DNA of 64,000 nt from Oceanipulchritudo coccoides (lineage in GTDB: Bacteria > Verrucomicrobiota > Verrucomicrobiia > Opitutales > Oceanipulchritudinaceae), in NCBI RefSeq assembly GCF_010500615.1, contig NZ_JAAGNX010000003.1, positions 434,001 to 498,000 on the forward strand, read 5' to 3'. The translations under genes and the position numbers were made by a program. Every line of letters begins with the position of its first letter. Position 1 is the first letter of the stretch. The notes under the pieces are model-generated. The model searched no databases. It worked only from the letters and a program-made list of their open reading frames with translations, and had not been told where the DNA came from. Below are positions 10,001 to 34,556 of this stretch, in pieces.

Positions 10001-10505
10001 TCAGGAGCTTATTGAGCGGTACCGTGCCCTGCGTGACGGCATTGGCATCAGCAAAAACCCCGCCCTTTATGGGGCAATCCCCACCGATGCGTATTCCCAT
10101 ACGCCTGAAGGGGCGGGAGCACAGCAACCCGGGATGACCGGCCAGGTCAAGGAAGACCTCCTGATACGCATGGCGGAACTGGGAGTCTATGTTGCAGATG
10201 GCTTGATTGGATTCCGGACCGATCTTCTTTCACGGGAAGAGCTCCTCGATCATAAGACCGAGTTTGTCCTGCCGGGATTGACCGGAGGCGAGATCACCGA
10301 GGAACTGCCAGCAGGCTCGCTGGCATACAGCTTCTGTCAGGTACCCGTCATCTACCTCAGCGGACAGGACTCATCTTGCGTCAGCGTTGAGCTTGGAGAC
10401 GGCACTGTTGAAGAGTTACCCGACATGCGTATTCCCAAGGAGTTAAGCCGGGAAATATTCAACCGCACGGGGAAAGTTGCCCGAATTCGGGTTCGCTTTC
10501 CCTAA
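7035..10505 (+). CDS. Large cytoplasmic carbohydrate-active protein of (alpha/alpha)6-barrel type, GH94-like
   Basis: 1156 residues, with ATG at 7035 and AAGGA 9 nt upstream. There is no signal peptide, so it should be cytoplasmic. Residues ~30-300 are beta-rich and resemble the N-terminal beta-sandwich of cellobiose-phosphorylase-type enzymes. The middle and C-terminal parts resemble a six-hairpin barrel (motifs 'GNWRDIFQNWEALL', 'NATTADGYNPYRL', 'WANIGYWGDHQIIYLLRLLE', 'MNTQRPEWNDANNALVGYG'). By overall look it is closest to GH94-like phosphorylases and related uncharacterised proteins, but I cannot place it in a numbered family or name the catalytic acid. It follows LacI paralogue B by 27 bp. 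Likely role: intracellular breakdown of the oligosaccharide imported by this locus (inference). Confidence 0.7.
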   Translation: MTKKTHLENTPPSSISPDCPLTDNLEKEVKGSVLEESGQTWYRIERTDLMGSFLMSLISDSDHWLFITSSGALTAGRINPDHALLPYYTQDKIEDLSASTGSRTIVRIHQDEGATTYWEPFTEHGKRGACIERHLQKNTTGNHIILEERNKDLGLLIRISWRPSGRFGFVRKVEILNESTKPRRIEVLDGLQNILPPGLAQRFQNEFSILGNAYKQTELVEPAGMGIYHLSSEPTDLASPMEALRANIAWQCGLDKPLYLISEQQLSSFLAGGKLETESECRGKRGSYLTLDGHELKAGGSACWYNCADVDKEPGEIEELLELISSSTELQEEIEADCERTQENLLKMLGQADGLQKSNESSRTMRHTSNTVFNLMRGGALITGYELPVDDVVKTVTRFNKEAGKRLKALLPADEKLHCRDPWSSDHPLCKADGDARRLVREYLPLSFSRRHGDPSRPWNRFSIEIKEDDGSPRFNYQGNWRDIFQNWEALLHSYPEYLEAAIFRFLNATTADGYNPYRLTKEGFEWEELEPGDAWANIGYWGDHQIIYLLRLLEASTRFHPDRLAGLLSEEGCVYAEIPYRIRSYEEILNDPRETIDYDEEWAKRIEARVEQKGSDGKLMHGGEGAIINVSLMEKLLAPLMAKLSNFVPSGGIWMNTQRPEWNDANNALVGYGISVVTLGYVARYLRFLITEFGETLESGEYALSSELGELLTAQINVFTATPGEVSPQERFALMQKLGQSASDFRGSLYDNALSGTKTQVTGKDILEYAKSALAHVELCLRENKREDALWHSYNLIKIEDKAIEVSHLHVMLEGQVSILSAGILDTNESLELLKSLRESELYRADQDSYILYPNKRLPDFLDKNCLSKEDIDAIPLLLKLVWAGNQSLVRKRSKGSYAFSGKLRNKQDVENVLNGLAENPDFSDLVSSDGPAVLELFENTFNHHAFTGRSGTFFAYEGLGSIYWHMVSKLVLAVQELIPMGDQQKATQELIERYRALRDGIGISKNPALYGAIPTDAYSHTPEGAGAQQPGMTGQVKEDLLIRMAELGVYVADGLIGFRTDLLSREELLDHKTEFVLPGLTGGEITEELPAGSLAYSFCQVPVIYLSGQDSSCVSVELGDGTVEELPDMRIPKELSREIFNRTGKVARIRVRFP

Positions 10506-10523
10506 GGGGATAAAGAAACTCAA

Positions 10524-10907
10524 TCAGTTCTCGAGAATTTCCAGTTCGTACCCGTCGGGATCGGTAAGGAAAGCCATCCGGAAATTGTTGGCAGCGGCTT
10601 TCTCTTTCCAGTCTCCTGGCCAGATTTCAAAGCCGTCGGCCTCCAGCTTTGCGCAGTATTCGGCGATATCATCGACACCGATACAAGTATGCATGAGGTC
10701 CTCCGGGACTTGTACTGTATAGTCCGGGGAATAGGTCAGCTCCAGCGTGTGGGCATTCCCGGGTAATTGAAGATGAACAATCTGGTTACCGGCTGGTGAC
10801 TTGTCGTTGCGTTTAAGCACTTCAAATCCGCAAGTTCGGGAATACCAATCGATGGAGCGCTCGAGGTCACTGACCCGAATTCGCGTATGGAGGAATTTTG
10901 TTGTCAT
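10524..10907 (-). CDS. gloA: Glyoxalase I (lactoylglutathione lyase), VOC family
   Basis: 127 residues, ATG at 10907 with AAAGGA upstream. Two VOC half-domains are visible. The metal ligands expected of glyoxalase I are all present: H7 (FLHTRIRV), E56 (HTLELTYS), H73 (DLMHTCIGV) and E121 (DGYELEIL). The enzyme isomerises the methylglyoxal-glutathione hemithioacetal to S-lactoylglutathione in the cytosol. It lies 25 bp downstream of a small unknown gene and converges on the 7035-10505 gene. The VOC fold is shared with other enzymes, but length and ligand pattern fit GloA well. Confidence 0.9.
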   Translation of the reverse strand: MTTKFLHTRIRVSDLERSIDWYSRTCGFEVLKRNDKSPAGNQIVHLQLPGNAHTLELTYSPDYTVQVPEDLMHTCIGVDDIAEYCAKLEADGFEIWPGDWKEKAAANNFRMAFLTDPDGYELEILEN

Positions 10908-10932
10908 GATTCGATCCTTTCTCAGTTGCCAG

Positions 10933-11367
10933 CTACATCATTCCAGACTTCTCAACAGCCTGCCGCAGCTCGTTTTGGAAATCCTGCAAGTCTTCCTGCG
11001 AGGGCTTGTAGCCGGGCTGTTTCGCATTCAGGGAAAGTCGCCCCATTTGATCGAGATGCCACTGTGCGGAAACGCCATCGCTGAACGTGACCTGCCCGCT
11101 TACCAAGGCGTCCGGACGCGTGACCTTGTCGAGCGTCACAGATACCTTGCCTGCTTGGGCTGAGCCCACCTCCTCGACTTTTGGGTCATCAAACTGGGGC
11201 CCTACCGCCTTGATTTCCAGATCGAGATCATCAACCAGAAAGCGCAAGTCCATGTACGTTATTCGTACATCCATCTCAGTCTCAAGGCGCTTTTGTACAT
11301 CGGAAAGACTGGCTCCTTCGCGAATCCAGGCCGCTACAGACGATTTTTGCTCATCAGTTAAACTCAT
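10933..11367 (-). CDS. Small conserved-looking protein of unknown function
   Basis: 144 residues, ATG at 11367. I do not recognise the family. Residues ~1-50 are helical and look like a small helix-turn-helix or resolvase-like start (AAWIREGASLSDVQKRL). Residues ~70-115 are beta-rich (VSVTLDKVTRPDALVSGQV, 'VSAQWHLDQMGRLSL'), and the C-terminus is helical. There is no signal peptide or membrane segment. It lies between dnaA (50 bp upstream) and gloA (25 bp downstream) on the same strand, probably in one transcript. Confidence 0.7.
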   Translation of the reverse strand: MSLTDEQKSSVAAWIREGASLSDVQKRLETEMDVRITYMDLRFLVDDLDLEIKAVGPQFDDPKVEEVGSAQAGKVSVTLDKVTRPDALVSGQVTFSDGVSAQWHLDQMGRLSLNAKQPGYKPSQEDLQDFQNELRQAVEKSGMM

Positions 11368-11417
11368 ACCCTATCAGGGTGAGTAAAGATTCCCTGGAGG
11401 CAACTGTGGAGTCCAGA

Positions 11418-12815
11418 TTATTGACGGTTCCCGCGCAACTGGCGGACAAGATACTCAACCGAGTTCCGGACCTTTTCGTCCTGCTCCATCATATTCTCCA
11501 CTGTCTTGACCGCATGGATAACCGTTCCGTGGTCGCGCCCGCCAAAGGACTCCCCGATTTCCTTCAAGGGATGATGGGTGAGCAGTCGGCTCAGATACAT
11601 CGCCACCTGCCGCGGAAAGGCAATATGGCTCGGACGGCGCCGATTCTGCATGTCGCTGAGACGAAGGTCATACATTTCAACAACTTTGCGCTGGATGCGC
11701 TCAATGGTGATCTGGTGCTGGACCTCCTCTTGAAGGATATCGTGGATAAGCTCCTCCGCCTTGCGACGTGTCAAAGGCTCGCGGATGAGGCGGGCGAATG
11801 TTCCCACCTTGATAAGGGCCCCTTCCAGGCGACGTACGTTCCGCGTGATTCGACTGGCAAGGAATTCGAGAACTTCCTCGGGGATCAGGTCAAAGCCCAT
11901 GGCCATGGCCTTCTTCTTCAAAATGGCGGCCCGGGTTTCCAGGTCCGGCGGCTGGATGTCTGTTACCATTCCCCACTGGAAACGGCTGATCAAGCGGCTT
12001 TCGAGCTTGTTTATCTCGCTTGCCGGGCGATCACTGGAAAGGCAGAGCTGGCGCTGGCTTTCAAAGAGCTCATTGAAAGTGTGGAAAAATTCTTCCTGGG
12101 TCCGCTCCTTGCCCTCAAGGAATTGGATGTCGTCAATCAGAAGAACGTCGACTTTGCGATAGAAGCGCCGAAAGGAATCGAGGGAATTTTCCCGGATTGC
12201 CCGCAGAAAGTTGTTGGTGAACTTCTCACAGGAGAGGTAGACCACTTTGGCCTCCGGATTGGATTGCTGAATGGCATGAGCCATTGCATGCATCAGGTGA
12301 GTTTTGCCCAGCCCGGTATCCCCATAAACAAAAAGCGGATTGTAGGCGCTTCCCGGAGAGTCCGCGACAGCGGTCGCCGCTGCATGAGCGAGCTGGTTAC
12401 TCGGGCCGACAATAAAGTTATCAAAGGTATTTCTCGGATTCAGGTATGGGTTGCGGGCTGGATGGAGTGTGCGTTGCCCTGTCCTGCCAAATTTACCTCC
12501 ACGACCGCGGTCTGAATCAACATCAACAGGCTCCCTTGGAGCCACCTGGACAGAACCACTGTCTTGGGCCGTAATCCGGACCATGACTTCCTCCCCGGCA
12601 ATGGCCGCGGCCTTCTCCCGGATCAGCTCGAGGTAATTATCCTCAAGCCAGATACGGGCAAATTCGTTCGCGGCCCGTAATTCAAGTGTCCCGCTTTCGT
12701 CAAGAATGGCATCAATCGACTGAAACCAATTTGCGTAAATGTCTTGGGATAGGGAATTTCGGAAGTCTTGTAGGACTTCCGTCCAGAGGGATTCCGTCAC
12801 AGAGGAGTGTGGCAT
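11418..12815 (-). CDS. dnaA: Chromosomal replication initiator protein DnaA
   Basis: 465 residues, the usual length. Domain I (1-85) is followed by a short linker rich in Arg/Gly/Asp, then the AAA+ core opening with 'NPRNTFDNFIVGPSN'. Walker A is GDTGLGKT (165-172) and Walker B is LLIDDIQF (225-232). The C-terminal DNA-binding domain carries the DnaA signature 'GGRDHGTVIHAVKTVEN' from residue 425. DnaA binds 9-mer boxes and opens the origin. No dnaN or recF follows; instead a small unknown gene and gloA lie downstream. The upstream spacer is AT-rich with at least one DnaA-box match. Confidence 0.98.
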   Translation of the reverse strand: MPHSSVTESLWTEVLQDFRNSLSQDIYANWFQSIDAILDESGTLELRAANEFARIWLEDNYLELIREKAAAIAGEEVMVRITAQDSGSVQVAPREPVDVDSDRGRGGKFGRTGQRTLHPARNPYLNPRNTFDNFIVGPSNQLAHAAATAVADSPGSAYNPLFVYGDTGLGKTHLMHAMAHAIQQSNPEAKVVYLSCEKFTNNFLRAIRENSLDSFRRFYRKVDVLLIDDIQFLEGKERTQEEFFHTFNELFESQRQLCLSSDRPASEINKLESRLISRFQWGMVTDIQPPDLETRAAILKKKAMAMGFDLIPEEVLEFLASRITRNVRRLEGALIKVGTFARLIREPLTRRKAEELIHDILQEEVQHQITIERIQRKVVEMYDLRLSDMQNRRRPSHIAFPRQVAMYLSRLLTHHPLKEIGESFGGRDHGTVIHAVKTVENMMEQDEKVRNSVEYLVRQLRGNRQ

Positions 12816-13247
12816 GATCGTTCAGATGGCAATTTATTCACACTGCGGGAACGACCTGGCAGTCCACACCAAGACTCACGGGAAAAGAAGCAGTAACTGC
12901 CTCACTATCAATGATCTTTGAAATAAAAATTTCTTCATGGAATTCAGTCTGGTTAGGAAAGAGCATATCTGTAAATTGTTGTAGTTTAATTACTTAGAGA
13001 AAATTAGTTTGGTAAGGAGACAAGAGGAATAGAATGTGGAAGAGCGAAATCTGCAGCAATGACCTTTTTACGAAGGCAGATGAGACGATGAGTCTCCAAT
13101 GCCTTATGAGTCTTTTCAAGCCATACTTCTACACAAGTTATTAACACTCTCCCCACCAATAACTTTTAGTACAAAAGCGTTGAATTTGTGAAACAATTCT
13201 TGCGAGCCGCGGATCATCGGGGCTGAGGGGTACCTGAGGGGAATAAT
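12816..13247. other. AT-rich spacer upstream of dnaA; possible origin or dnaA regulatory region
   Basis: 432 bp without a convincing gene, visibly more AT-rich than its surroundings, especially 12910-13020. It holds TTATTCACA at 12834-12842, which fits the DnaA-box consensus TTATNCACA and lies just upstream of dnaA. Weaker relatives occur at 13138-13146 (TTATTAACA) and as reverse-strand near-matches around 13036 and 13188. One good box can serve dnaA autoregulation; calling it oriC would need more boxes and a strand-skew change. Confidence 0.35.
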
Positions 13248-14213
13248 TCACTCTCCCTCCTCTGCCATGAAGGCAATTAATCGGTCATTAAATTCCTTTG
13301 CCGAGTCGTGTCCCATTTTTTTCAGGGAATGGACCATGGCGGCAACTTCAACGAGGCGAGCAAGATCGCGTCCCGGCCGAACCGGAAGAATGATGTGCGG
13401 AATGCGGATTCCCATGACCTCGAAGACATCATGCTCCAGACCGGTTCGCTCCTCGTCCATTCCATGTTTCCAGACCTCAAAGGTGATGACCATATTGATC
13501 TCCTTGGAAAGCCGGACTGAACGGATGCCAAAGAGCTCGCTGATATCGATGATTCCGAGGCCACGACACTCCATATAACCGCGATTGAGCTCGCTACTGC
13601 GCCCTGTGAGAATGCGTTCATTCTCAAGTTTAATGTAGACAAGGTCGTCAGCGACAAGACTGTGCCCACGTTCAATCAAAGCGAGGGCGCACTCGCTCTT
13701 GCCCACACCGCTCTCACCACGGATTAATGTTCCAATCCCCTTGATATCCATGAGCGTCCCGTGCTCGGCCACTTGCGGGGCAAAAAGATCCTCCAAGAGA
13801 AGCATCGCCTGGGCGGAGAAATCCTTGGTTGTGAGGGAACTCCGGAAAAGCGGCGTGCCTGACTTTTCGCACATCGTTTCCATGGCTGGCGTCGGGAGCA
13901 GATTCCTCGAGACAACAATACAGGGAATCTTTTTCTCCACCATCCTGCTCATCACATCCAACTGTCGGCTGGCGGGAATTTCCCTCATGTAAGCCATTTC
14001 TCCAGCCCCAAAGAGCTGGATCCGCTTGTAACCAAAACTCTTGAAGAACCCAGTCAGGGCCAGCGCCGGACGATTCATTGATTTGTCCCGGATTGACCGG
14101 GACAGGCCCTTCTCCCCTGCGACTAGACTCAAGTGCAGATCTCCATCTGCCGCTTTAAGAAAACTTTTAACAGGAACACTTTCGACAAACTTGGGCTGGG
14201 CTCTGAGCGGCAT
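13248..14213 (-). CDS. hprK: HPr(Ser) kinase/phosphorylase
   Basis: 321 residues, ATG at 14213 with AAGGGGT just upstream. The N-terminal domain (1-135) precedes a kinase domain. That domain has the conserved His in 'AEHGTLMDI', Walker A GESGVGKS (166-173) and the HprK signature [10 protein letters not shown] (215-224). The enzyme phosphorylates and dephosphorylates HPr on Ser46; in many Gram-negatives it belongs to a regulatory rather than a transporting PTS. It is the last gene of a leftward run with lptC-lptA-lptB, 33 bp after lptB, reminiscent of the lpt-rpoN-ptsN-hprK neighbourhoods of proteobacteria, but without rpoN, hpf or ptsN here. Confidence 0.95.
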
Positions 14214-14246
14214 TACCCCTTCACTCTGGAAGAATTAACAGCAGGA

Positions 14247-14990
14247 TTAAAGCGCAAAATCCTCACCAAGATAAAATCTCCGGCTATCGGGATCGTTTAT
14301 CAGCGATTCGCTGTTTCCTTCGGCAAGGACCTGTCCGTCATGCAGCAGATAAGCCCGGTCCACAATGCGTAACGTTTCGCGGACGTTGTGGTCTGTAATG
14401 AGGACCCCAATACCTTTGTCCTTGAGACCCAGGACAATCTTCTGCACCTCGCTGACGCTGATCGGGTCAACTCCACTGAATGGCTCATCCATCAGCAAAA
14501 AACGGGGCTCGGTAAGGAGGGCCCGGGCAATTTCGAGCCGGCGCCGCTCTCCACCACTGAGGGTGTAGGCCTTCTGGCGGACAACCGTCTCAAGGCCCAA
14601 CTCGTGCAGCAATTGCTCAACCCGCTCCTTGCGGGCGACCTTTTTCATGGGCAGCGATTGGGCGATACAGTCCAGGTTGTCATAGACTGAGAGCCGCCTG
14701 AAGACGGAGGGTTCCTGCGGAAGATACCCGATACCCATACGGGCCCGGCGGAACATCGGCAGTCGCGTGACCACTTTCCCGTTGATAGACACGTCCCCGG
14801 AGCTGGCTGGAACCAGACCGACAATTATATAAAAAGAAGTCGTCTTGCCTGCCCCGTTTGGCCCAAGAAGTCCGACAATCTCACCTCCAAAAACCTTCAA
14901 GTCGACACCGCGCACAACTTCGCGCTTTCCGTAACGCTTGACGAGGCCACGAGTCTCAATGGAATGCGCTTCCGGCTTAGGGATCGACAC
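14247..14990 (-). CDS. lptB: LPS export ABC transporter ATP-binding protein LptB
   Basis: About 247 residues. I start it at the GTG at 14990, which has a good Shine-Dalgarno (AGGAAGGGG) 6-7 nt upstream and gives the usual LptB length; an ATG at 15011 is the alternative. Motifs: Walker A GPNGAGKT, Q-loop 'GYLPQEPSVFRRLSV', signature LSGGERRR, Walker B 'RFLLMDEPFSGVDP', H-loop ITDHN. LptB powers extraction of lipopolysaccharide from the inner membrane with LptF/G (not in this window). Its start overlaps the end of lptA by 14 bp, so translation is probably coupled. Confidence 0.96.
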   Translation of the reverse strand: MSIPKPEAHSIETRGLVKRYGKREVVRGVDLKVFGGEIVGLLGPNGAGKTTSFYIIVGLVPASSGDVSINGKVVTRLPMFRRARMGIGYLPQEPSVFRRLSVYDNLDCIAQSLPMKKVARKERVEQLLHELGLETVVRQKAYTLSGGERRRLEIARALLTEPRFLLMDEPFSGVDPISVSEVQKIVLGLKDKGIGVLITDHNVRETLRIVDRAYLLHDGQVLAEGNSESLINDPDSRRFYLGEDFAL

Positions 14991-24564: not shown

Positions 24565-25224
24565 CTACTTCAGCTCCCGCTTGTAGCGGTTTTGAAAATC
24601 CGTCTGGTTCACGAACCCTTTTTGCATCGCATAGCGAATCAGGTCCACGGTGTTGTGCAGCCCAAGCTTGCGCATGATACGCGCCTTGTGGTTTTGCACA
24701 CTGACTGGTCTCAAATCAAGGGCCTCTGCGATTTTCTCATTGGAGGCACCTGCTCCAAAATGGCGTAGCAGTTCCTGTTCACGTTCAGTCAGGACTTTTG
24801 AAAATGCGTTTGGATCGGTTTTCTGGATGAGCATGTTCTGTTGAACGGTAGCAGCGTAGTAGCAGTTTCCCTCGCCCAATTGATGAACGGCCCGGCGCAG
24901 CTCTTCAATGGATTCTGTGTTCTTGTCAACAAAACCGAATAAGCCCGTCATGAAAACCCGATACAAGGTATATTCATCAGTCCGTCCGGAAACGCCAAGT
25001 ATCCTCACGGAAGAATCCTTCTTCAATATTCTGTTTGCCAGATCCAGCCCACTCCCGTCGGGCAGTTCTATATCCAGAATAACTGCCTTTGGGTGAAATT
25101 TCTCAAATGCTTTCCAGCCTTCCTTGATGGTCTGGCAAGTGGCAACAAGTTCGAATTTGTCCGTCAGGCATTGGCGTACCAGATCAATTCCAAGTTTCTG
25201 GTCTTCAACAATAATGGTTTTCAT
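24565..25224 (-). CDS. NarL/LuxR-type response regulator
   Basis: 219 residues, ATG at 25224 overlapping the kinase stop in an ATGA junction, so it is co-translated with the kinase. The receiver domain has acidic residues E7-D8 and the phosphorylation site D51 (AVILDIELPDGSGLDL). The C-terminal helix-turn-helix is of LuxR type ('LTEREQELLRHFGAGASNEK', 'VQNHKARIMRKLGLHNTVDL'). It should be the DNA-binding output of the hybrid kinase encoded upstream. Confidence 0.95.
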   Translation of the reverse strand: MKTIIVEDQKLGIDLVRQCLTDKFELVATCQTIKEGWKAFEKFHPKAVILDIELPDGSGLDLANRILKKDSSVRILGVSGRTDEYTLYRVFMTGLFGFVDKNTESIEELRRAVHQLGEGNCYYAATVQQNMLIQKTDPNAFSKVLTEREQELLRHFGAGASNEKIAEALDLRPVSVQNHKARIMRKLGLHNTVDLIRYAMQKGFVNQTDFQNRYKRELK

Positions 25225-28200
25225 CGGCGATCCCATTGTTGAAGTTCAGCAAGCCCGATGTGGATCTCCTCCACATTCCCCGATTGGGCAGATACTTGCA
25301 AATCTCTACAAACTTGTTGCATGGCGGGATTATTCCTCATCAACGCCAAGGTCGTCAAGCGATGTGCACATCTTCTCAAATTCTCCCATTCCGATTGATG
25401 GCCAAACCTCAGACAATCCCTGATATGTTTGTAAATTTCCTCATTCAATTCCTCGCTATCGACCATGTCCATTGTCGACGGGCGCTGCAACTGTTTGTCC
25501 TCAACATTCGCCATCGCATAAGCTAAGCGGCTGGCAGTGAGTGGCTTGGAAATGTATCCATTCATCCCGGCTTGCTCGCTTTCCCGAAGTTTCTCCCCGT
25601 CTGTGTAGGCCGTGAGGGCAATGATGATCACTTTGTCTTCCGGATGCTTGTGACGGTGCATTGCCGCGATTTCCGGCCCCATCAAGCCCGGAAGGTCCCA
25701 GTCAAGCAAGGCCAGATCATAGGAATTGTCCTCAAGCATCTGGAGGGCCTCACGGCCATTTTCACAATCATCACAATCACAACCGATTGTCTTGAAGAAA
25801 TCCACGATGGACCGGCGGTTGTAGGACAAGTCGTCGACAATAAGCACCTTCTTTCCCCTCAGCTGGCTCAGCACGGCATCCTGATCAAGCTCCTTCGCCC
25901 CGGCCACACGGGCAAAGCGCCCCTTCAGGAAAAAGTTACAACCACTTGGCTCATTATCAGAAAGCCCAAGATGGGCACCCATGGCATGGGCCACATCCTG
26001 GCAAATTGACAAGCCGAGGCCAGTCCCGTGCTTTCCGCTGTCGATACCACTCTCTCCACGATAAAACCGCTCAAAGACAAACCCTTTCTCGGCATCGTCA
26101 ATGCCCAGCCCCCAGTCCTTCACAAATATCTCCAACTCAACATGTTCAGGACTCAACTTGTGGCATTTCGCGCCCACCTCAATCCGCTCGGATTCGGAAT
26201 ACTCAAGGGCATTCACGATCAGGTTAGTGAGGATCTTGATCATCCAGTTACGGTCGGTTTTGATGACCACTTCCTTCAATTCAGGATCTATCGCCAAGGT
26301 TATATTGACCAGCGCCTTCTGGATATTGAACTGATTCTGCTTCACTGAAGTTCCCAGAATATCCGTGATGGACACGGGGATTAACGCCATCGGGAGATTT
26401 GCCTGGTCAATCGCCGAAAAATCCAGGATTTCCCCAAGCATGCGATCCACAATGATCCCGAATTCGGTCAGGTCCTTGAGCCGCGAATCGTCACCGCTGC
26501 GAGGTGGATCCCGCGTCAGGGTCTCGGCAATCATGAGCACGCCATTCAACGGATTGCGAATGTCATGCGAAAGGCCCGCCAGGAAGTTGATCCGCGCCGC
26601 ATTCGCTGCTTCCAGCTCGCGTGTGGCTTTCCGGACCTCGTTTTCCAGCCAGATGTTTCGCTTCTTCAGCTGTGCATTTCGGAACATGTAGATCGCCCAT
26701 GAAAGGATGAGCAAAAGCAGAAAAAGTATCCCCTGGAAAATCGGATTGAGATACCATGGTGGGGCAATTCCAAACTGAACCCGCCGCGGAACTGAACTCA
26801 TCCCGTTTGGATGCACCGCCCGCAGCTCAACCGCGAATTCCCCATGCCCGGCAAATTGTAGTGAGGGATCCTTCAGGTTAACATTTCGCCAGCGGCCTTC
26901 GTTGATCCGGTATTGTACCTGACTTGGAATTTCCGGGCGCCCCAGGTCAATCTTGAGATCAATATAATGCATCCCGCTGCGGATTGTCCGGTCCGCCACG
27001 GGCTGGTTGTCCAGAAAGAGATCAAATCGAACAGCTGGAATAGACACAGGCTCCAACTCATCCAGAGCATACCAACCCACACCGTTGGAGCCGAGCACGC
27101 CAAGCCGTGCTGCATTGGCCATCAGGCCTATGGGTTCACCGCAAAGCTCAAGATAGGGAATCGAAAGCATGTGAGTGCTGCCTCCGCCGTACACTGCCAC
27201 TCCATGCTCCGCCGTTATAGGATTATAATAGGAAATATAATTTGATTCACCACTGGAGGCAACTCCCCGCACTTGCCAGTCTTGGGCAATAGGGATTCTG
27301 GTAATTTCCCCGGTATTGGAAATTCGATACAGCCCTGAATCTTGAGAGAAAACAATCTGATTGTCGCTAATTGCTGAGTATTGGAAACTGCCCTTCAGCG
27401 ATTCGCTCAGCGTCTCGACCATCCAGATCTCCCCGTTATGTGAAAGCGAGACAAGAAGTCCCCTTTCGCTCAAGGCAAAGAAGCGTCCATGCAATTCACC
27501 AAGAATATTCATCTCCTGGTCGGTCGGATAGACCAGTTCCATCTCCAGATCTTCGGTTACGGTGTACAAGCCATTCTGCCCAGATGCCAAGGCTACGGAG
27601 CTACCCCATTTTAAGTCATGAACTGGCTCGGGAAGTACTCCAAGTGATAAATCCCCCTGTTCCAAAGTATTGTAGTTGACCACATTTCCAAAGGCAACGC
27701 TCCCGCCAGGTGTAACACTCGACCATTTGGATATCCCGCTGATGCTGCCCCTCAGGAATCCATTTGCATCGAACTTTACCCAGCTCTTTTCAGAAAAAAC
27801 AAACCCATCTGAGGAATCTGCAAGAAAGGTCCTAACCAGGTTTTCTTCAAAAATCACATTGGATGGAAAAAACAAACTATCCGCATTCGGGTCGACACGA
27901 GCCACTCCTTCTGTACCCAAAACTACGATATCAGTTCCTGACCCTTTCTCTATTTTATAAACATCGCCGATATCCAAGCCGCTGTAAACCGATGCATAAC
28001 CAGTTATTGATAACTGCCTCTTATCAAGAAACGCCACCCCGGAAGGATAGTCGGTTATCAAAATATAAGGCCCCCAATCAATCGCATTACTGATGCCCTT
28101 TTTGAAATAGTCCGGATAATTGGAATTCACCAGCTCTGGATATTCCCCTTCTACTCCACTCCAGGTGTATATCGAAGTTGATGTCCCCAAAATATATTGA

Positions 28201-28841
28201 TCATTGCTCCAGGCCATCCAGGTAACAACATTACCTCCAGTCATTTCAATGGGAACAACCTGTTCATGTCCGTTTTCATCAATTTTCCATAACCCGGAGA
28301 AAAGTCCGATCAAAAGGCCATCTAAAGGACCCCCCGGATCCATCGTGAAGGGGCGCGGTTCGAAAGACTTCTCAACAGACAGGTTAATAGAAAAATTCAC
28401 CGGATCAATCCAACCATAGCCGGATGAGCCCACAAACCAGAGTTTCCCCTTCCGGAATACAATGTCCCAAATGTAACCTGCTTCGATTGAAACGGTACCA
28501 CCCGGGGCGCGATTATTTGCCTTTAGCCAACCAACCCCGTCCGGTCCAGCAAACCACACATGTTTGCCCTCCGGGTCGGAGGCGAGTGAGGTGTAGCGAC
28601 CTTCCGTATACACATCGTGCCAGACTCCATTTTCCAGGACAGACAAACCCTCCCCGGCAAACCAAAGGGAATCCTTAAGTTTAAGAACATCGTAAAATTC
28701 CCGCTCAGGGACCAGTTCCAGCTTGTCCGCGAAAAAGTAAGCCGGTCCAGTTTGATACTCTGCATGGAGCGGATTGATAAAATTTAATCCAATCAGCAAT
28801 AAGAACTGTGGAAATATTATATAAGACAGAAAGCGAAACAT
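25221..28841 (-). CDS. Hybrid sensor histidine kinase with periplasmic propeller, receiver and Hpt-like tail
   Basis: About 1206 residues from the ATG at 28841, which gives a good signal peptide ending in 'NFINPLHA'. An upstream ATG at 28880 would overlap the divergent peptide gene. Domains: periplasmic beta-propeller-like repeats (~30-600), a Y_Y_Y-like beta domain (~610-700), one membrane helix (~705-730), HisKA with 'FLAGLSHDIRNPLNGV' (His ~759), HATPase ('NLIVNALEYSES', 'GLGIDD', 'HGTGLGLSICQDVA'), receiver ('VLIVDDLSYNRRS', phospho-Asp ~1047 in LLDWDLPG, 'SKPL'), then a helical tail with 'RRCAHRLTTLALM' (His ~1160), which looks like an Hpt domain. Propeller-type hybrid kinases usually sense an extracellular ligand. 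The separate regulator overlaps the stop by 4 bp. Confidence 0.95.
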   Translation of the reverse strand: MFRFLSYIIFPQFLLLIGLNFINPLHAEYQTGPAYFFADKLELVPEREFYDVLKLKDSLWFAGEGLSVLENGVWHDVYTEGRYTSLASDPEGKHVWFAGPDGVGWLKANNRAPGGTVSIEAGYIWDIVFRKGKLWFVGSSGYGWIDPVNFSINLSVEKSFEPRPFTMDPGGPLDGLLIGLFSGLWKIDENGHEQVVPIEMTGGNVVTWMAWSNDQYILGTSTSIYTWSGVEGEYPELVNSNYPDYFKKGISNAIDWGPYILITDYPSGVAFLDKRQLSITGYASVYSGLDIGDVYKIEKGSGTDIVVLGTEGVARVDPNADSLFFPSNVIFEENLVRTFLADSSDGFVFSEKSWVKFDANGFLRGSISGISKWSSVTPGGSVAFGNVVNYNTLEQGDLSLGVLPEPVHDLKWGSSVALASGQNGLYTVTEDLEMELVYPTDQEMNILGELHGRFFALSERGLLVSLSHNGEIWMVETLSESLKGSFQYSAISDNQIVFSQDSGLYRISNTGEITRIPIAQDWQVRGVASSGESNYISYYNPITAEHGVAVYGGGSTHMLSIPYLELCGEPIGLMANAARLGVLGSNGVGWYALDELEPVSIPAVRFDLFLDNQPVADRTIRSGMHYIDLKIDLGRPEIPSQVQYRINEGRWRNVNLKDPSLQFAGHGEFAVELRAVHPNGMSSVPRRVQFGIAPPWYLNPIFQGILFLLLLILSWAIYMFRNAQLKKRNIWLENEVRKATRELEAANAARINFLAGLSHDIRNPLNGVLMIAETLTRDPPRSGDDSRLKDLTEFGIIVDRMLGEILDFSAIDQANLPMALIPVSITDILGTSVKQNQFNIQKALVNITLAIDPELKEVVIKTDRNWMIKILTNLIVNALEYSESERIEVGAKCHKLSPEHVELEIFVKDWGLGIDDAEKGFVFERFYRGESGIDSGKHGTGLGLSICQDVAHAMGAHLGLSDNEPSGCNFFLKGRFARVAGAKELDQDAVLSQLRGKKVLIVDDLSYNRRSIVDFFKTIGCDCDDCENGREALQMLEDNSYDLALLDWDLPGLMGPEIAAMHRHKHPEDKVIIIALTAYTDGEKLRESEQAGMNGYISKPLTASRLAYAMANVEDKQLQRPSTMDMVDSEELNEEIYKHIRDCLRFGHQSEWENLRRCAHRLTTLALMRNNPAMQQVCRDLQVSAQSGNVEEIHIGLAELQQWDRR

Positions 28842-28860
28842 ACTGTATAAAGACGACCCT

Positions 28861-29028
28861 ATGAAGAAGACAAAACGCATGATCCTGCTTGTTGTAGCTA
28901 CATCCCTAGCCGCAATAGGCCTTACTACTCAAGCCGAAACAATTACTAAGGTGGTTGTTTCTGATTTAAACGCCGATGATTCGGGTTCCATCCTGATGAC
29001 TATCTACTGCATGTCTGGTAACAGATAG
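28861..29028 (+). CDS. Short secreted peptide (55 codons), upstream of YcaO-like gene
   Basis: ATG at 28861 to TAG at 29026-29028, 55 residues. It has a textbook signal peptide: basic start (MKKTKR), hydrophobic core (MILLVVATSLAAIGL) and a cleavage-like TTQA-ET site. The predicted mature part is about 30 residues, contains one Cys, and ends in 'SILMTIYCMSGNR'. The Shine-Dalgarno is poor. It starts only ~20 bp from the divergent kinase start and ends 53 bp before the YcaO-like gene on the same strand. Possibilities: an exported signal peptide, a modified-peptide precursor, or the remnant of a longer gene. I do not recognise a family. Signal-peptide quality is the main evidence that it is coding. 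Confidence 0.55.
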   Translation: MKKTKRMILLVVATSLAAIGLTTQAETITKVVVSDLNADDSGSILMTIYCMSGNR

Positions 29029-29081
29029 ACCCTTCCAGAACACATTATTCACCAACCCATCCCGTAAGAAAGAGGTAAACC

Positions 29082-30062
29082 ATGTCCACGTATACGCACG
29101 CAACCGATATTCCCTTCCCATATGACTTCGCCAGCGCGCCGGAATGGTTCATGAAGAAGGCCCGCTTTGCCAAGCGATTCTTCCTGAATCTGGCTCCGAT
29201 CCGCTATGCGATGGTGGCGGAGGACGGAGGCCCCGTCTCAAACCTGGAATATGGAAGTACCTCTTACCTTGGGGAAACCTGGCAACTCTGCAGGGCTACT
29301 TTGCAGAGGGAATTCCAGCACCCGATGAACAGCCAGTTGTGCCTGTTCAGCTCGGCCGATGGATCAGGGATGGGCCAGACCCGTTTGGAAGCACGCGCCA
29401 AGGCTGTTTCAGAGGCTTTGGAACGCTGGGCCTTCCAGGAGACAAGTTCTGGTCCGGATTCCATGTTGTATGGGTACCAGCACTCGATGAGCACTAAGGG
29501 CATGGCCGCCTTTCCGGGAATTTTCCCGGGTCAGGCACGGCGCTCGGCCATTGATGAAGCATTCGAGTACTATTCAGTTGACGCGTGGTGGGGCGGCACC
29601 CTGAAACATTGGATTATTAATCGGGATGACTCGACTATCGTGTTCATCGACCAACCCGAATACAAGGGATTCATCGCCATTGCCATCCGCCATCTGGACT
29701 TGGACAACTATGTCGCGTCCTACGGTATCGGCTCGGGCATGACCCCGGAAGACGCTGAATTGAAGGCGCAATTGGAAGCCTGCCGGTCACAGACTATCCT
29801 CGAACGGCGTGAGGCAACTCCAGAGAGATCACGGATACGCCCGGTTCTTGAGACTGAGCAGAACCTGCTTCAGTTTGCCTCGGCGTCAGGGTTTGAGATG
29901 GTCAAGGACCGACTTGCAACTCAGCCATGGCTTCCAGCATTGAAGCCAAAGGTCATCTTTGACGGTCCTGTCAAGGGTGCCTGGAACAAATACACTCACG
30001 TCTGGCGCTATGCTCTGGAACCATTCCCGATCAAGAGTCAGCAGATCAAGTTTGTCGCCTAA
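29082..30062 (+). CDS. YcaO-like protein (stand-alone)
   Basis: 326 residues, ATG at 29082 with AGAGGT 6 nt upstream. Residues 91-120 contain 'GSGMGQT' and 'EARAKAVSEALERWAFQE', matching the YcaO ATP-binding helix (S..EALER). A second block (214-241, 'GIGSGMTPEDAELKAQLEA') matches the later YcaO helix, although the usual Q-S-R after it reads R-S-Q. YcaO proteins activate amide backbones with ATP to make azolines or thioamides; E. coli YcaO itself acts in ribosomal protein S12 methylthiolation. This copy is shorter than typical (~400) and has no adjacent E1-like partner, TfuA or dehydrogenase. It sits between a short secreted-peptide gene and a receiver gene. YcaO membership is likely; activity is uncertain. 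Confidence 0.72.
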   Translation: MSTYTHATDIPFPYDFASAPEWFMKKARFAKRFFLNLAPIRYAMVAEDGGPVSNLEYGSTSYLGETWQLCRATLQREFQHPMNSQLCLFSSADGSGMGQTRLEARAKAVSEALERWAFQETSSGPDSMLYGYQHSMSTKGMAAFPGIFPGQARRSAIDEAFEYYSVDAWWGGTLKHWIINRDDSTIVFIDQPEYKGFIAIAIRHLDLDNYVASYGIGSGMTPEDAELKAQLEACRSQTILERREATPERSRIRPVLETEQNLLQFASASGFEMVKDRLATQPWLPALKPKVIFDGPVKGAWNKYTHVWRYALEPFPIKSQQIKFVA

Positions 30063-30215
30063 GACATCCAATTCCATCCCCCCACCCTCGACCGAAGTAA
30101 CACCAGCGGACACATGAGCACGCAAGAAGACAGTTTCCATTTTCCATTCATCTCAAATCTTATGAATGGGAAAATCTCTTCGCGCTCAGCTCTGCATCAC
30201 AGGAGATCAGTATCG

Positions 30216-30611
30216 ATGAAGGAAATGGCACTTTGCCTGGATGATGATCCCCTGTCTCTAAGACTCGTCGAACATCTCCTGAAAAAGCGCTACGAAGTTA
30301 TATCGTGCGCTACCATCGATAAGGCAATCCGCGCCGTCCAAAAGTATGACATGGCATTGTTTCTTTGCGATTACCACCTTGGCGAGTCGTTTACGGGATC
30401 ACAGGCTTACGAAACCCTTCGGCAGGATTTTGGCTATAATCCGGTCCATCGGGTCTTGATCACTTCCTATCCTTCTTCCGAGATTGAGGCAGAAGCCCTT
30501 GCCTCTGGCTTTGACCGGGTCTTTTCCAAGCCTCTCCGCAAGGAGTTTCAGATGTACTGTCTGAACTTGAATATGCCGAGGATCAGGAATCCTCTTGCAG
30601 CTGGTCAGTAG
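30216..30611 (+). CDS. Receiver-only response regulator
   Basis: 131 residues from the ATG at 30216 (AGGAG about 11 nt upstream); an in-frame ATG at 30114 would add 34 residues without domain similarity. It is a complete receiver: acidic pocket D9-D11 (CLDDDP), phosphorylation site D52 (LFLCDYHLG), 'LITSY' switch region and K105 (FSKPLRKE). No output domain follows, so it probably relays phosphate or binds another protein, for example the Hpt-like tail of the nearby hybrid kinase. It follows the YcaO-like gene on the same strand and is followed by a terminator, so peptide-YcaO-receiver looks like one operon. Confidence 0.88.
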   Translation: MKEMALCLDDDPLSLRLVEHLLKKRYEVISCATIDKAIRAVQKYDMALFLCDYHLGESFTGSQAYETLRQDFGYNPVHRVLITSYPSSEIEAEALASGFDRVFSKPLRKEFQMYCLNLNMPRIRNPLAAGQ

Positions 30612-30675: not shown

Positions 30676-30718
30676 ATCTGGCTGTCGCCCTGGACTTGGG
30701 ACGCCAGATTTTCATTTT
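30676..30718 (+). terminator. Probable rho-independent terminator after receiver gene
   Basis: ATCTGGC (30676-30682) pairs with GCCAGAT (30703-30709). The stem continues inward through GTC/GAC and CCC/GGG with two single-base bulges, and is followed by TTTTCATTTTT. It marks the end of the peptide-YcaO-receiver unit. The rest of 30612-30836 is AT-rich and shows no gene. Confidence 0.65.
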
Positions 30719-30836
30719 TAAAAACTTGGTAAATAATTTCAAAGTCCCGGAAAACTAGTTGGGAGCGAATGAGATTCGCTGCAGAGTGAAATAAATCAGC
30801 AGCAGCCTCTGAATAAAATATCTCAATCAATTTCAA

Positions 30837-31301
30837 ATGAAATTCCAAATCCCAAGAAAGAAGTCGGGCTTCACGCTGGTTGAAACCATGATTACCGTCA
30901 CAATTATTGGTCTGCTCACCTCAGTTTCCGTACCGGCTGTCATGTCAGCCAAGGACAGGGCACTGGCTGTTTCCCTTGCCAATGATTTCAGGACTTATGC
31001 TGCCGCCTTTGAAATCTACGCTCTTGAAGAAGGATCTTGGCCGGCGGACGGCCTTCCAGGCAGCATTCCTGCAGGTATGGAAGATCAATTACCAAAGTTT
31101 GCTGAAACAACTTATCAAAACGGCAAATGGGATTGGGAACACAATGCTGTCGGCGTGACAGCTGGTGTGAGTCTACGCCTCAGCTCAATTGATGAGAAGG
31201 TCCTGACCCGGATTGATGAGATGCTTGATGATGGCAACCTCACGGCAGGTAAATTCCGTAAGACAAATGGCAACGGAGTAACCTTGGTCCTTGAGGAATA
31301 A
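30837..31301 (+). CDS. Type IV pilin-like / pseudopilin protein
   Basis: 154 residues. A short basic leader ends at the prepilin peptidase motif 'KSGFTLVETMITVTIIGLL' (cleavage after Gly, Phe+1, Glu+5), followed by the hydrophobic helix and a small globular domain. Such proteins are type IV pilins or type II secretion pseudopilins; verrucomicrobial genomes carry many single copies. No assembly genes lie nearby. It is separated from the YcaO unit by a terminator and converges on the 31332 gene. Confidence 0.9.
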   Translation: MKFQIPRKKSGFTLVETMITVTIIGLLTSVSVPAVMSAKDRALAVSLANDFRTYAAAFEIYALEEGSWPADGLPGSIPAGMEDQLPKFAETTYQNGKWDWEHNAVGVTAGVSLRLSSIDEKVLTRIDEMLDDGNLTAGKFRKTNGNGVTLVLEE

Positions 31302-32504: not shown

Positions 32505-34556
32505 TTAGAAAATTCCCTTCAGTCCGACACGAAACTCCCTGCCGGATCCCGGATAAAACCCTCCACTGTACGCTGTTGAAAAATACTCCCTGTCGAAGAG
32601 ATTGTTGATGCGCACGGTGAGCTTAAAATCATCAATAAAATTCCACTGGAGCGAAACGCCACCAAGGAAATATTCTGGAATCGTTCTTTCTGTATTTAAA
32701 AAGTCGTTTCCTTGTATCTGGTCTGACTGGTACTGCAAATCAACAGACACACGCCAGTCTACGGCAATCAAAAGCCAAGCTGAGAAAGAAGCATTCAATT
32801 CGGGCACAAGCGGAATCCTGTCACCGGCGTGAAGAGACCTTATTCCCCTGAACCCTGCCTCCACCCACGCAATTCGCGCATAATAGCCATACCTTTCAGC
32901 CTGCCAGGAGGTGTCCAGTTCGATGCCCAGTCGTTCGGTCTTGCCCATATTTCGGTTAAGGCGAACCGATTCATCGAAGAAGATCTCATCGTTCATCAAC
33001 ATGTAGAATACGGTCAATCCTCCACTCCACTGTGAACCGGATCGCTTGATGCCCAGCTCGAAATTATTCCCCGTCTCCGGATCGAGGTCAGTGTTGAAAG
33101 GAATCGCTAATGGATAATCTTGATACGATGCCGTCTCATCAAGTGATGGATACCGGTAGACACGATCCCAACCGCCCCAGACCGAGAGGGTTTTCGAAAG
33201 CATCTTAACAAGGGAAATCTCCGCTGCCCAGCCTGACTTCTTCACCGGCCCGTCAAAAGAGAGGAACGGATCGATTTCAGGGGGATTTTTATAGAGGGGA
33301 TTCGGTATGGTGCCCCTGTTTGTAATCAATTCAGGACGAAGCTGTTCCTCTTTAAACCGAATATACTGGTAGTCCGTGTCAGCCGACTCGATGCGGATTC
33401 CTCCAGAGATCTTCCACGCATCAGTGAGCATTAATTGGCCGAAAGCATAACCACCAGCTGCTGTTCGTTCGAGATCAGCCTCCGCTCGTTTGATATTCCC
33501 GTTTGCGCTCAGGTAATTTTCGGTTTCCAGCCAATCGCGGCTTAGATCGGTACCAAATATCAACGAGTTTTGTCCCAATGGAATCAAAAGTCTTGGTGAA
33601 AACGTTGCCCGGCGTTGTAGGTTCCGTGATTCAGTCGCTGAAGAAATACCACTTGCTCCCTCCCGCCATGTTCGATCCCGACTTAGGAATCCCGCTTGTG
33701 CCTCCCACTGACCCCACTCCTCGGATCCTGTGGTCCCAATTGTGGCCAACAGGGAATCTATCTGGGAGCTCTGTTCCTCAAGAAATCCTGACTGTCTCGG
33801 GTTTTCCTTGGCCTGCTGGTAAGTTAGTGGCCCCGGATACTGAATCTCTGACCGATCGAGATGAATGCGCCCGGTCCAGCTCGCACTCTCCTCCCCTCCA
33901 TGTTTCCAGGCAAGCTGTGCGCCTCTCGATTCAGCTGCTGAATTATCACGAAAACCATCTGTATCCGAATAATAAATACCTCCACGAATTCCAACCCCGT
34001 GCATTGTCTGCCCCAACCCCCAGGAACCACGAAACGCGGAGTTACTTCCCGCCTCCAGAAGTGATCTCCCTTCCAATTTATCACCCGGTTCACGCGTTTT
34101 CAGCTTGATGACACCCGATACCGCGTGATTCCCGTAAAGTACGCTCTGTCCACCGCGGATCACTTCCACCGATTGCAATTCCCCGACATCCAATCCCATC
34201 CAGTTGATGCCGCTCATGTCTCCGGGATTGTAGCTAAGTCCGTCAACCAGTACCAGTACCCGCAGTCCGCTGTTGTCCCCAAATCCGCGCATCGCCAACT
34301 GCCCTTCCGTCCCGTTGCCCGTAAACCCGCTGAAGCGTATGCCCGCCAGTTGGCCCAGCAATTCCGGGACACTCGCTCCAAGGCTGGTTTCCAACTCAGA
34401 TTGCTCAAGCCGTACCACGTCTGCCGGTACCTCTAACCCCAAGGTGTCAAAATGCCACGCCTCCACTGTATACGGCTCCAATTCCAGCACCTCCTCCCCA
34501 GACAGGACGCCGGCCAGCCACATCATCATCAAGACTCCTCGATGTCTCCCTTTCAC
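32505..34556 (-). CDS. TonB-dependent receptor, BtuB-like
   Basis: 683 residues, starting at a GTG (34556); ATGs at 34529/34526/34523 are alternatives but shorten the signal peptide. The plug has 'VPADVVRLEQSELETSLGAS', 'QLAMRGFGDNSGLRVLVLVD', 'VEVIRGGQSVLYGNHAVSG'. The barrel ends with 'INNLFDREYFSTAY' and 'YPGSGREFRVGLKGIF', the usual receptor C-terminus ending in Phe. Size and plug resemble BtuB/colicin-I type receptors for vitamins or siderophores. It lies between a trypsin-like secreted protein and a secreted surface protein. I see no cobalamin riboswitch upstream, so the substrate is open. Confidence 0.93.
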   Translation of the reverse strand: MKGRHRGVLMMMWLAGVLSGEEVLELEPYTVEAWHFDTLGLEVPADVVRLEQSELETSLGASVPELLGQLAGIRFSGFTGNGTEGQLAMRGFGDNSGLRVLVLVDGLSYNPGDMSGINWMGLDVGELQSVEVIRGGQSVLYGNHAVSGVIKLKTREPGDKLEGRSLLEAGSNSAFRGSWGLGQTMHGVGIRGGIYYSDTDGFRDNSAAESRGAQLAWKHGGEESASWTGRIHLDRSEIQYPGPLTYQQAKENPRQSGFLEEQSSQIDSLLATIGTTGSEEWGQWEAQAGFLSRDRTWREGASGISSATESRNLQRRATFSPRLLIPLGQNSLIFGTDLSRDWLETENYLSANGNIKRAEADLERTAAGGYAFGQLMLTDAWKISGGIRIESADTDYQYIRFKEEQLRPELITNRGTIPNPLYKNPPEIDPFLSFDGPVKKSGWAAEISLVKMLSKTLSVWGGWDRVYRYPSLDETASYQDYPLAIPFNTDLDPETGNNFELGIKRSGSQWSGGLTVFYMLMNDEIFFDESVRLNRNMGKTERLGIELDTSWQAERYGYYARIAWVEAGFRGIRSLHAGDRIPLVPELNASFSAWLLIAVDWRVSVDLQYQSDQIQGNDFLNTERTIPEYFLGGVSLQWNFIDDFKLTVRINNLFDREYFSTAYSGGFYPGSGREFRVGLKGIF

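Follow-up and report, generated by a model that had tools for sequence, protein, structure and literature searches.

The bottromycin YcaOs, AmiD and ItfB, enzymes of ribosomally synthesized and post-translationally modified peptides (RiPPs), represent stand-alone YcaO proteins that act on a small neighboring precursor. The same arrangement was found at positions 24,565–30,611 of a 64,000-nt stretch of Oceanipulchritudo coccoides (the window), where a 55-aa peptide and a stand-alone YcaO protein are encoded next to a divergent hybrid sensor kinase and a LuxR-type regulator, and 75 homologous loci were examined. The module differs from the known partner-free enzymes in precursor family, host and tailoring genes, and none of them is known to combine a Sec-like leader with a constant propeller kinase.

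The precursor also recalls those of the bufferins and of other RiPPs made by multinuclear non-heme iron-dependent oxidative enzymes (MNIO), which share a small Cys-containing precursor, a Sec-like signal replacing the classical leader and a precursor gene placed directly before the enzyme gene. Nevertheless, bufferins bind copper, and the module has a YcaO instead of an MNIO, includes a kinase and lacks a conserved DUF2063-type partner; no MNIO (DUF692) was found beside the precursors, whose constant neighbor is the YcaO. Sec-like leaders have been called rare among bacterial RiPPs and have so far been experimentally shown for MNIO bufferins only (PMC12452194). With the azoline clusters (thiazole/oxazole-modified microcins), built on a McbD/LynD-type YcaO and an E1-like partner, the module shares the YcaO fold and the Cys/Ser/Thr core residues, but no E1-like partner or RiPP recognition element (RRE) protein was seen beside the YcaO, and there is no dehydrogenase and no exporter. 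The Bacteroides hybrid systems BT4663 and BT4673 resemble it in joining a periplasmic propeller sensor with a Y_Y_Y domain to a hybrid kinase, whereas the module has a separate LuxR regulator, an Hpt tail and a link to a RiPP operon instead of glycan utilization genes. No description of a YcaO system in Opitutae was found in the open literature searched, although an earlier description elsewhere is possible; the search turned up no paper dedicated to the subject, and the sole co-mention was of Opitutus terrae as training data.

Gene order and distribution of the module

A small open reading frame (ORF) with a common leader was located directly upstream of the YcaO gene in nearly all of the 75 loci. 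The divergent hybrid kinase was present in 63 of the 65 loci with more than 3.5 kb of upstream sequence, and an orthologue of the LuxR regulator stood beside it in 51 of the 57 with more than 5.4 kb; this orthologue lies behind the kinase gene in the window clade and is convergent with it in other loci (the L047 regulator, counted as same-strand, is probably a match to the kinase's own receiver). Since this gene order recurs in nearly all of the homologous loci, the association of peptide, YcaO and kinase is not accidental. The distances between YcaOs and those between kinase cores were correlated (r = 0.94 over 56 loci, to which shared species history contributes), as expected of one inherited unit. 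Hence, the peptide, the YcaO and the propeller kinase with its regulator are inherited together throughout an order of bacteria from water and soil. Besides the kinase and the regulator no other gene was conserved at the YcaO loci, and in particular no exporter, peptidase or immunity gene.

A preliminary description of this DNA had placed a regulator, a kinase, a peptide, a YcaO-like protein and a receiver in one divergent cassette, and all five ORFs were recovered at the same coordinates. Their functional link, proposed there from gene order at a single locus, was strengthened for the peptide, YcaO and kinase by an order kept in dozens of genomes, by co-varying divergence and by a palindrome upstream of the precursor gene. 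Loci keeping the YcaO without the peptide or the kinase turned out to be rare exceptions: L034, considered below, and two distant contigs labeled as Bdellovibrionota (L095 and L101) that carry a relative of the YcaO. In L101 neither kinase nor precursor was present and the YcaO gene follows genes resembling a solute-binding protein, while in L095 no precursor was found and the contig was too short to judge the kinase.

The YcaO subfamily was detected in 27 of 273 Opitutales genomes, and in a sample of 387 Verrucomicrobiota genomes only members of the Opitutales matched it. Cultured bacteria with the locus include Cerasicoccus arenae, C. frondis and a Coraliomargarita sp. The window genome itself contains a second, divergent and complete module of peptide, YcaO, kinase and LuxR regulator (L020, G000:C1:713000-732000, positions 8963–14644), whose peptide ends in GTLPCGSSKKY. 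A contig labeled as Agromyces (L026) gave a match identical to that of the Opitutales contig L023 (73%, same coordinates, same E-value), so it is probably a mis-binned contig of a metagenome-assembled genome. In nine loci a protein of about 260 aa is encoded downstream of the YcaO (e.g. L049, 9110–9874, and L080, 7052–7855), with a HATPase_c domain in the two that were scanned.

The precursor peptide and the YcaO enzyme

The 55-aa peptide (28861–29028, + strand) consists of a Sec-like leader reaching to about residue 25 and a core, ETITKVVVSDLNADDSGSILMTIYCMSGNR, with the conserved Cys50 (codon 29008–29010), the presumed modification site. In an alignment of 72 precursors the leader has fixed columns (G 97%, A 97% and D 83%) followed by a variable stretch, the first Cys column of the core is Cys in 94%, and a second Pro-Cys is frequent (67/62%). 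Cys accounts for 6.6% of the residues after position 32 and for 1% before it. The core is otherwise hypervariable, and in six loci it contains 2–4-fold repeats: GCAQLPCYHRDFN three times in L035 and L086, DTCTWPCE three times in L066, ACTAAC twice in L082, AFTETVCNF three times in L077 and AFCDTVCNF four times in L115. Because this division into leader and core is the anatomy of a RiPP precursor, the peptide is almost certainly the substrate of the YcaO. Ten precursors searched against Pfam and NCBIfam gave no meaningful match. Within the family the strong precursor matches fell at YcaO loci, and the search for orphan precursors elsewhere in these genomes returned weak, unconvincing matches only.

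A strongly hydrophobic core segment was found in 72 of 87 precursors, several others, such as those of Cerasicoccus, being without it; judged from the leader, Sec export of the peptide is quite probable in the window species. The leader is conserved beyond the needs of a signal peptide and may therefore double as the recognition sequence of the YcaO, as has also been proposed for bufferins (PMC12452194). A lipoprotein reading was rejected, as no lipobox Cys was seen by eye at the end of the leader. Two precursors in tandem occur in L028, L029, L031 and L099, the second of which, nearer the YcaO, mostly lacks the core Cys (FDPVFFGGRFGVADDNLGG...). In the window (start at 28861) and its relatives a −10-like xAxxxT hexamer is most frequent 12–16 bases ahead of the ATG of the precursor, and few precursors (14 of 72) have a Shine-Dalgarno-like motif, for which reason the precursor mRNA is possibly leaderless.

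The 326-aa YcaO (29082–30062, + strand) matched PF02624 with an E-value of 3.9e-8 and 33.4 bits, above the curated cut-off of 25.7, so that the identity first suggested by its likeness to YcaO was confirmed by profile and agrees with the predicted fold. Seventy of the 74 family members matched PF02624 at E ≤ 0.01. No significant match was obtained in PDB sequence searches with the protein alone or as a profile; the sequence is far from any solved YcaO and the relationship had to be drawn from structure. An AlphaFold model built from 74 relatives (mean predicted local distance difference test score, pLDDT, 90.7) was aligned with known structures, and the best 14 chains were all YcaO (Z 9.9–17.2; next unrelated chain, Z 6), among them McbD (17.2), LynD (16.1), the YcaO peptidase 7u58 (15.9), a methanogen YcaO (15.7) and E. 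coli YcaO (12.6), with TruD also near the top. Six residues, E111, E114, E159, E162, E232 and R309, putative members of the ATP/Mg site, are invariant in the 74 sequences and lie in the model on the helices expected for it. Where the usual GKG motif has Lys, this family has Ser, Thr, Ala or Tyr. As judged from the predicted fold, the window YcaO is real and complete.

The search for partner proteins in the window genome gave no match for TfuA (PF07812) or for a PqqD-type RRE (PF05402). No E1-like or RRE partner was conserved at the YcaO loci, ThiF/E1-like proteins not having been searched genome-wide. A six-frame PF02624 search of the window genome missed both YcaO copies because the family is divergent, while a protein query found both, and a divergent partner may likewise have escaped detection. 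The premise of the preliminary description, that a YcaO normally requires an E1-like partner or TfuA, was too strict: the bottromycin YcaOs function partner-free (PMC8442711), and the absence of a partner is thus unusual but not contradictory.

The kinase, its regulator and the candidate operator

The hybrid sensor kinase (25221–28841, − strand) was characterized by Pfam, an AlphaFold model and Foldseek. Its predicted order of domains is a signal/transmembrane helix, a beta-propeller sensor, a Y_Y_Y/Ig-like domain, a transmembrane helix, HisKA, HATPase_c, a receiver and an Hpt-like tail. In the window protein Pfam detected HisKA, HATPase_c, Response_reg and a weak Hpt (E 0.038, below the cut-off), but was blind to the propeller, while the kinases of relatives carry Reg_prop, Y_Y_Y, HisKA, HATPase_c, receiver and Hpt domains. 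The model of residues 1–746 (pLDDT 88) is all-beta with a terminal Ig-like domain, and in Foldseek it came closest to the hybrid sensors BT4673/BT4663 of Bacteroides, matching their periplasmic domains (E 1.9e-22). The propeller-type sensor surmised earlier is consequently upheld by the predicted fold of the window protein and by Reg_prop in its relatives, and the sensors are modeled as the double-propeller type of hybrid two-component systems (HTCS), in one chain with Y_Y_Y, kinase and receiver. Although the ORF is readable from 28880, a start at 28841 is more likely (MFRFLSYIIFP..., signal-like), which would leave about 20 bp between the starts of the kinase and peptide genes.

The adjoining regulator (24565–25236, − strand) contains a receiver and a LuxR/GerE DNA-binding domain (PF00072, 9.6e-17; PF00196, 4.1e-16), in agreement with the LuxR regulator expected beside the kinase. 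The receiver-only protein (30114–30611, + strand; PF00072, 1.1e-10), with its phospho-acceptor Asp in LFLCDYHL, was counted in the cassette by the preliminary description; it is an operon member in the window clade, downstream of the YcaO in five loci (L022–L025 and L027), but is optional and was not seen at that place elsewhere. The terminator said to close the operon is plausible as an intrinsic terminator on fold energy (30676–30719, + strand), with a hairpin at 30676–30709 followed by the U-rich UUUUCAUUUUU (−15.8 kcal/mol, z −1.5), but a consensus terminator scan found nothing after the receiver gene. The operon is closely followed, at 30837–31301 (+ strand), by a gene for a pilin-like protein, in which PF07963 marks a prepilin N-methylation motif.

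Of 71 regions spanning −130 to −30 relative to the precursor start, 22 contain a TACC-N8-GGTA palindrome; elsewhere in these loci 925 kb of sequence yielded 10 such sites. One example, CTACCGGAATTCCGGTAG, has two 7-base arms around 2 bases, which we take to be the layout of NarL-type sites. In many Opitutales the copies lie at about −64, −86 and −108, in 22-bp steps; L053 has all three (−109/−87/−65) and L081 two (−86/−64), with a spacing of exactly 22 bp, i.e., two DNA turns. The window clade has a different sequence at −87 to −69. At this place L027 carries a perfect 22-bp palindrome, CTTGGGTTAAATTTAACCCAAG, and the window the candidate operator TTGATAAAATTTAATCCAA (28774–28792, no strand assigned), within the 5′ end of the kinase gene and with no second copy in the genome even when 2 mismatches are allowed; a regulon search with this palindrome gave no other convincing site there.

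The strict TACC-type site was found in 1–8 copies per genome in ten genomes, and its reversed control almost never. Since these genomes were picked for a site in the precursor region, the independent test lies in the copy number and the other places, not in presence; in three of them the site stood at one place only. In several genomes the extra sites are followed by genes for TonB receptors, PAS kinases, receiver-only proteins or a MacB-like permease. In the Opitutae loci L164, L166, L173, L178 and L181–L184, TACCGGANNTCCGGTA recurs ahead of genes for PAS hybrid kinases, receiver-only proteins and TonB receptors, and these may form a regulon. The palindrome is likely to be bound by the LuxR regulator of the module.

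Proposed circuit and competing explanations

The best reading of these data is a new family of YcaO-RiPPs, most of whose precursors have Sec-like leaders and for which neither Pfam nor NCBIfam has a precursor model. We propose, with a probability of roughly 0.5, that it forms a RiPP module with its own two-component control, autoregulated by the dedicated propeller kinase. The N-terminal ~25 residues of the precursor would serve for export and probably also for recognition by the YcaO. In the cytoplasm this enzyme, without an E1-like, TfuA or RRE partner, would spend ATP in activating the backbone amide that precedes the core Cys, or the Thr/Ser found there in some relatives, with closure to an azoline as the most likely outcome. 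Sec would carry the product over the inner membrane, the leader would be removed, and the product would build up in the periplasm or outside, where the propeller domain of the divergent kinase would sense it or its bound form. Phosphate would then pass from HisKA to the receiver, to Hpt and to the LuxR regulator, whose binding to the palindrome would control transcription of the peptide and YcaO genes and so complete the loop; in the window clade the receiver-only protein may tune the relay. That the kinase senses the YcaO product is put forward tentatively, with somewhat less than even odds. A further step, in which the YcaO-modified, Sec-exported peptide is a pheromone read by the propeller kinase, with species-specific cores matched to their sensors and an export signal doubling as leader, is possible but rather doubtful.

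Several observations weigh against the proposed circuit. L034 keeps the peptide and the YcaO without the kinase. The peptide distances tracked those of the kinase sensor (0.72), the YcaO (0.71) and the kinase core (0.68), so that a test of ligand-sensor co-evolution gave no discriminating signal. Propeller HTCS of known function sense, to our knowledge, glycans and not peptides. BT4663 is, by its PDB title, a sensor of heparin/heparan sulfate. In the window itself the palindrome is imperfect and falls within coding sequence, and other LuxR regulators might bind the palindrome, given that it also precedes other genes in some genomes. L037 has a core that lacks Cys without belonging to the Cys/Thr-swapped type. 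Finally, Cerasicoccus-type leaders are poor Sec signals, and Sec export is hence not universal in the family. Of the peptide-signaling system suggested in the preliminary description, the unity of peptide, YcaO and kinase and the role of the peptide as substrate were borne out; that the kinase senses the peptide is still something we infer.

With regard to the chemistry, two subfamilies exchange Cys and Thr in the core. The Cerasicoccus-type core KA(W/P/Y)P(S/T)(Y/W/F)P(C/T)EV appears as KAPPTWPCEV in L097 and as KAPPTYPTEV and KAYPTFPTEV in L070 and L125, and the repeats read FCDTVC in L115 and FTETVC in L077. Because these interchanging residues are beta-nucleophiles, an azoline is favored over simple metal binding by thiols, and we regard it, by a slight preference, as the product of the YcaO. 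The same module could instead form a thioamide or amidine, or cleave the peptide: stand-alone YcaOs make amidines, as AmiD does in streptamidine (PMC8442711) and ItfB at C-terminal residues (PMC10352776), and the peptidase 7u58 is among the structural matches. This is unlikely, as the conserved and interchanging core Cys/Thr fit cyclodehydration and no TfuA match was obtained in the genome. It is extremely improbable that the small ORF is unrelated to a YcaO modifying another protein, given the conserved leader and the core with repeats directly upstream in nearly all loci, together with the concentration of strong precursor matches at YcaO loci.

As to function, the secreted RiPP might be an antagonist or effector whose production the kinase switches on in response to another cue (a glycan, a competitor or stress). 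The HTCS propellers whose structures are known come from glycan sensors, the cores are hypervariable as in bacteriocins, with repeats in several loci, and in several genomes the palindrome also stands before a MacB-like permease or before receiver, PAS kinase and TonB receptor genes. Nevertheless, the lack of a conserved immunity gene, dedicated exporter or peptidase, and the pairing of each peptide locus with a kinase of its own, inherited along with the YcaO, which exceeds the needs of an effector, make such a role rather improbable. The Cys-rich Pro-Cys cores would also suit a metal-binding peptide, a metallophore or buffer with a role like that of methanobactin or the bufferins, with the kinase sensing the metal or the metal-peptide and TonB-dependent uptake; outside this family, RiPP precursors with a Sec signal are known from the copper-binding bufferins (PMC12452194), L178, L182 and L183 have TonB receptor genes after the palindrome, and a TonB receptor is encoded at 32505–34556 in the window. 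This function, like the effector role a serious rival, is nonetheless unlikely: the Cys gives way to Thr in several members and is absent in L037, the loci show no conserved metal transporter, P-type ATPase or metal regulator, and of the close relatives only L022 has the neighboring TonB receptor and its partner gene at the same position.

In the open literature searched, no system was found that combines a YcaO free of partners with Sec-like precursor leaders and a propeller kinase as constant companion. If the kinase of the proposed circuit reads the peptide, the module would be a peptide communication system for these bacteria and would add a new kind of ligand for HTCS sensors. If the peptide is indeed a pheromone, it would represent an undescribed signaling system in Gram-negative bacteria.

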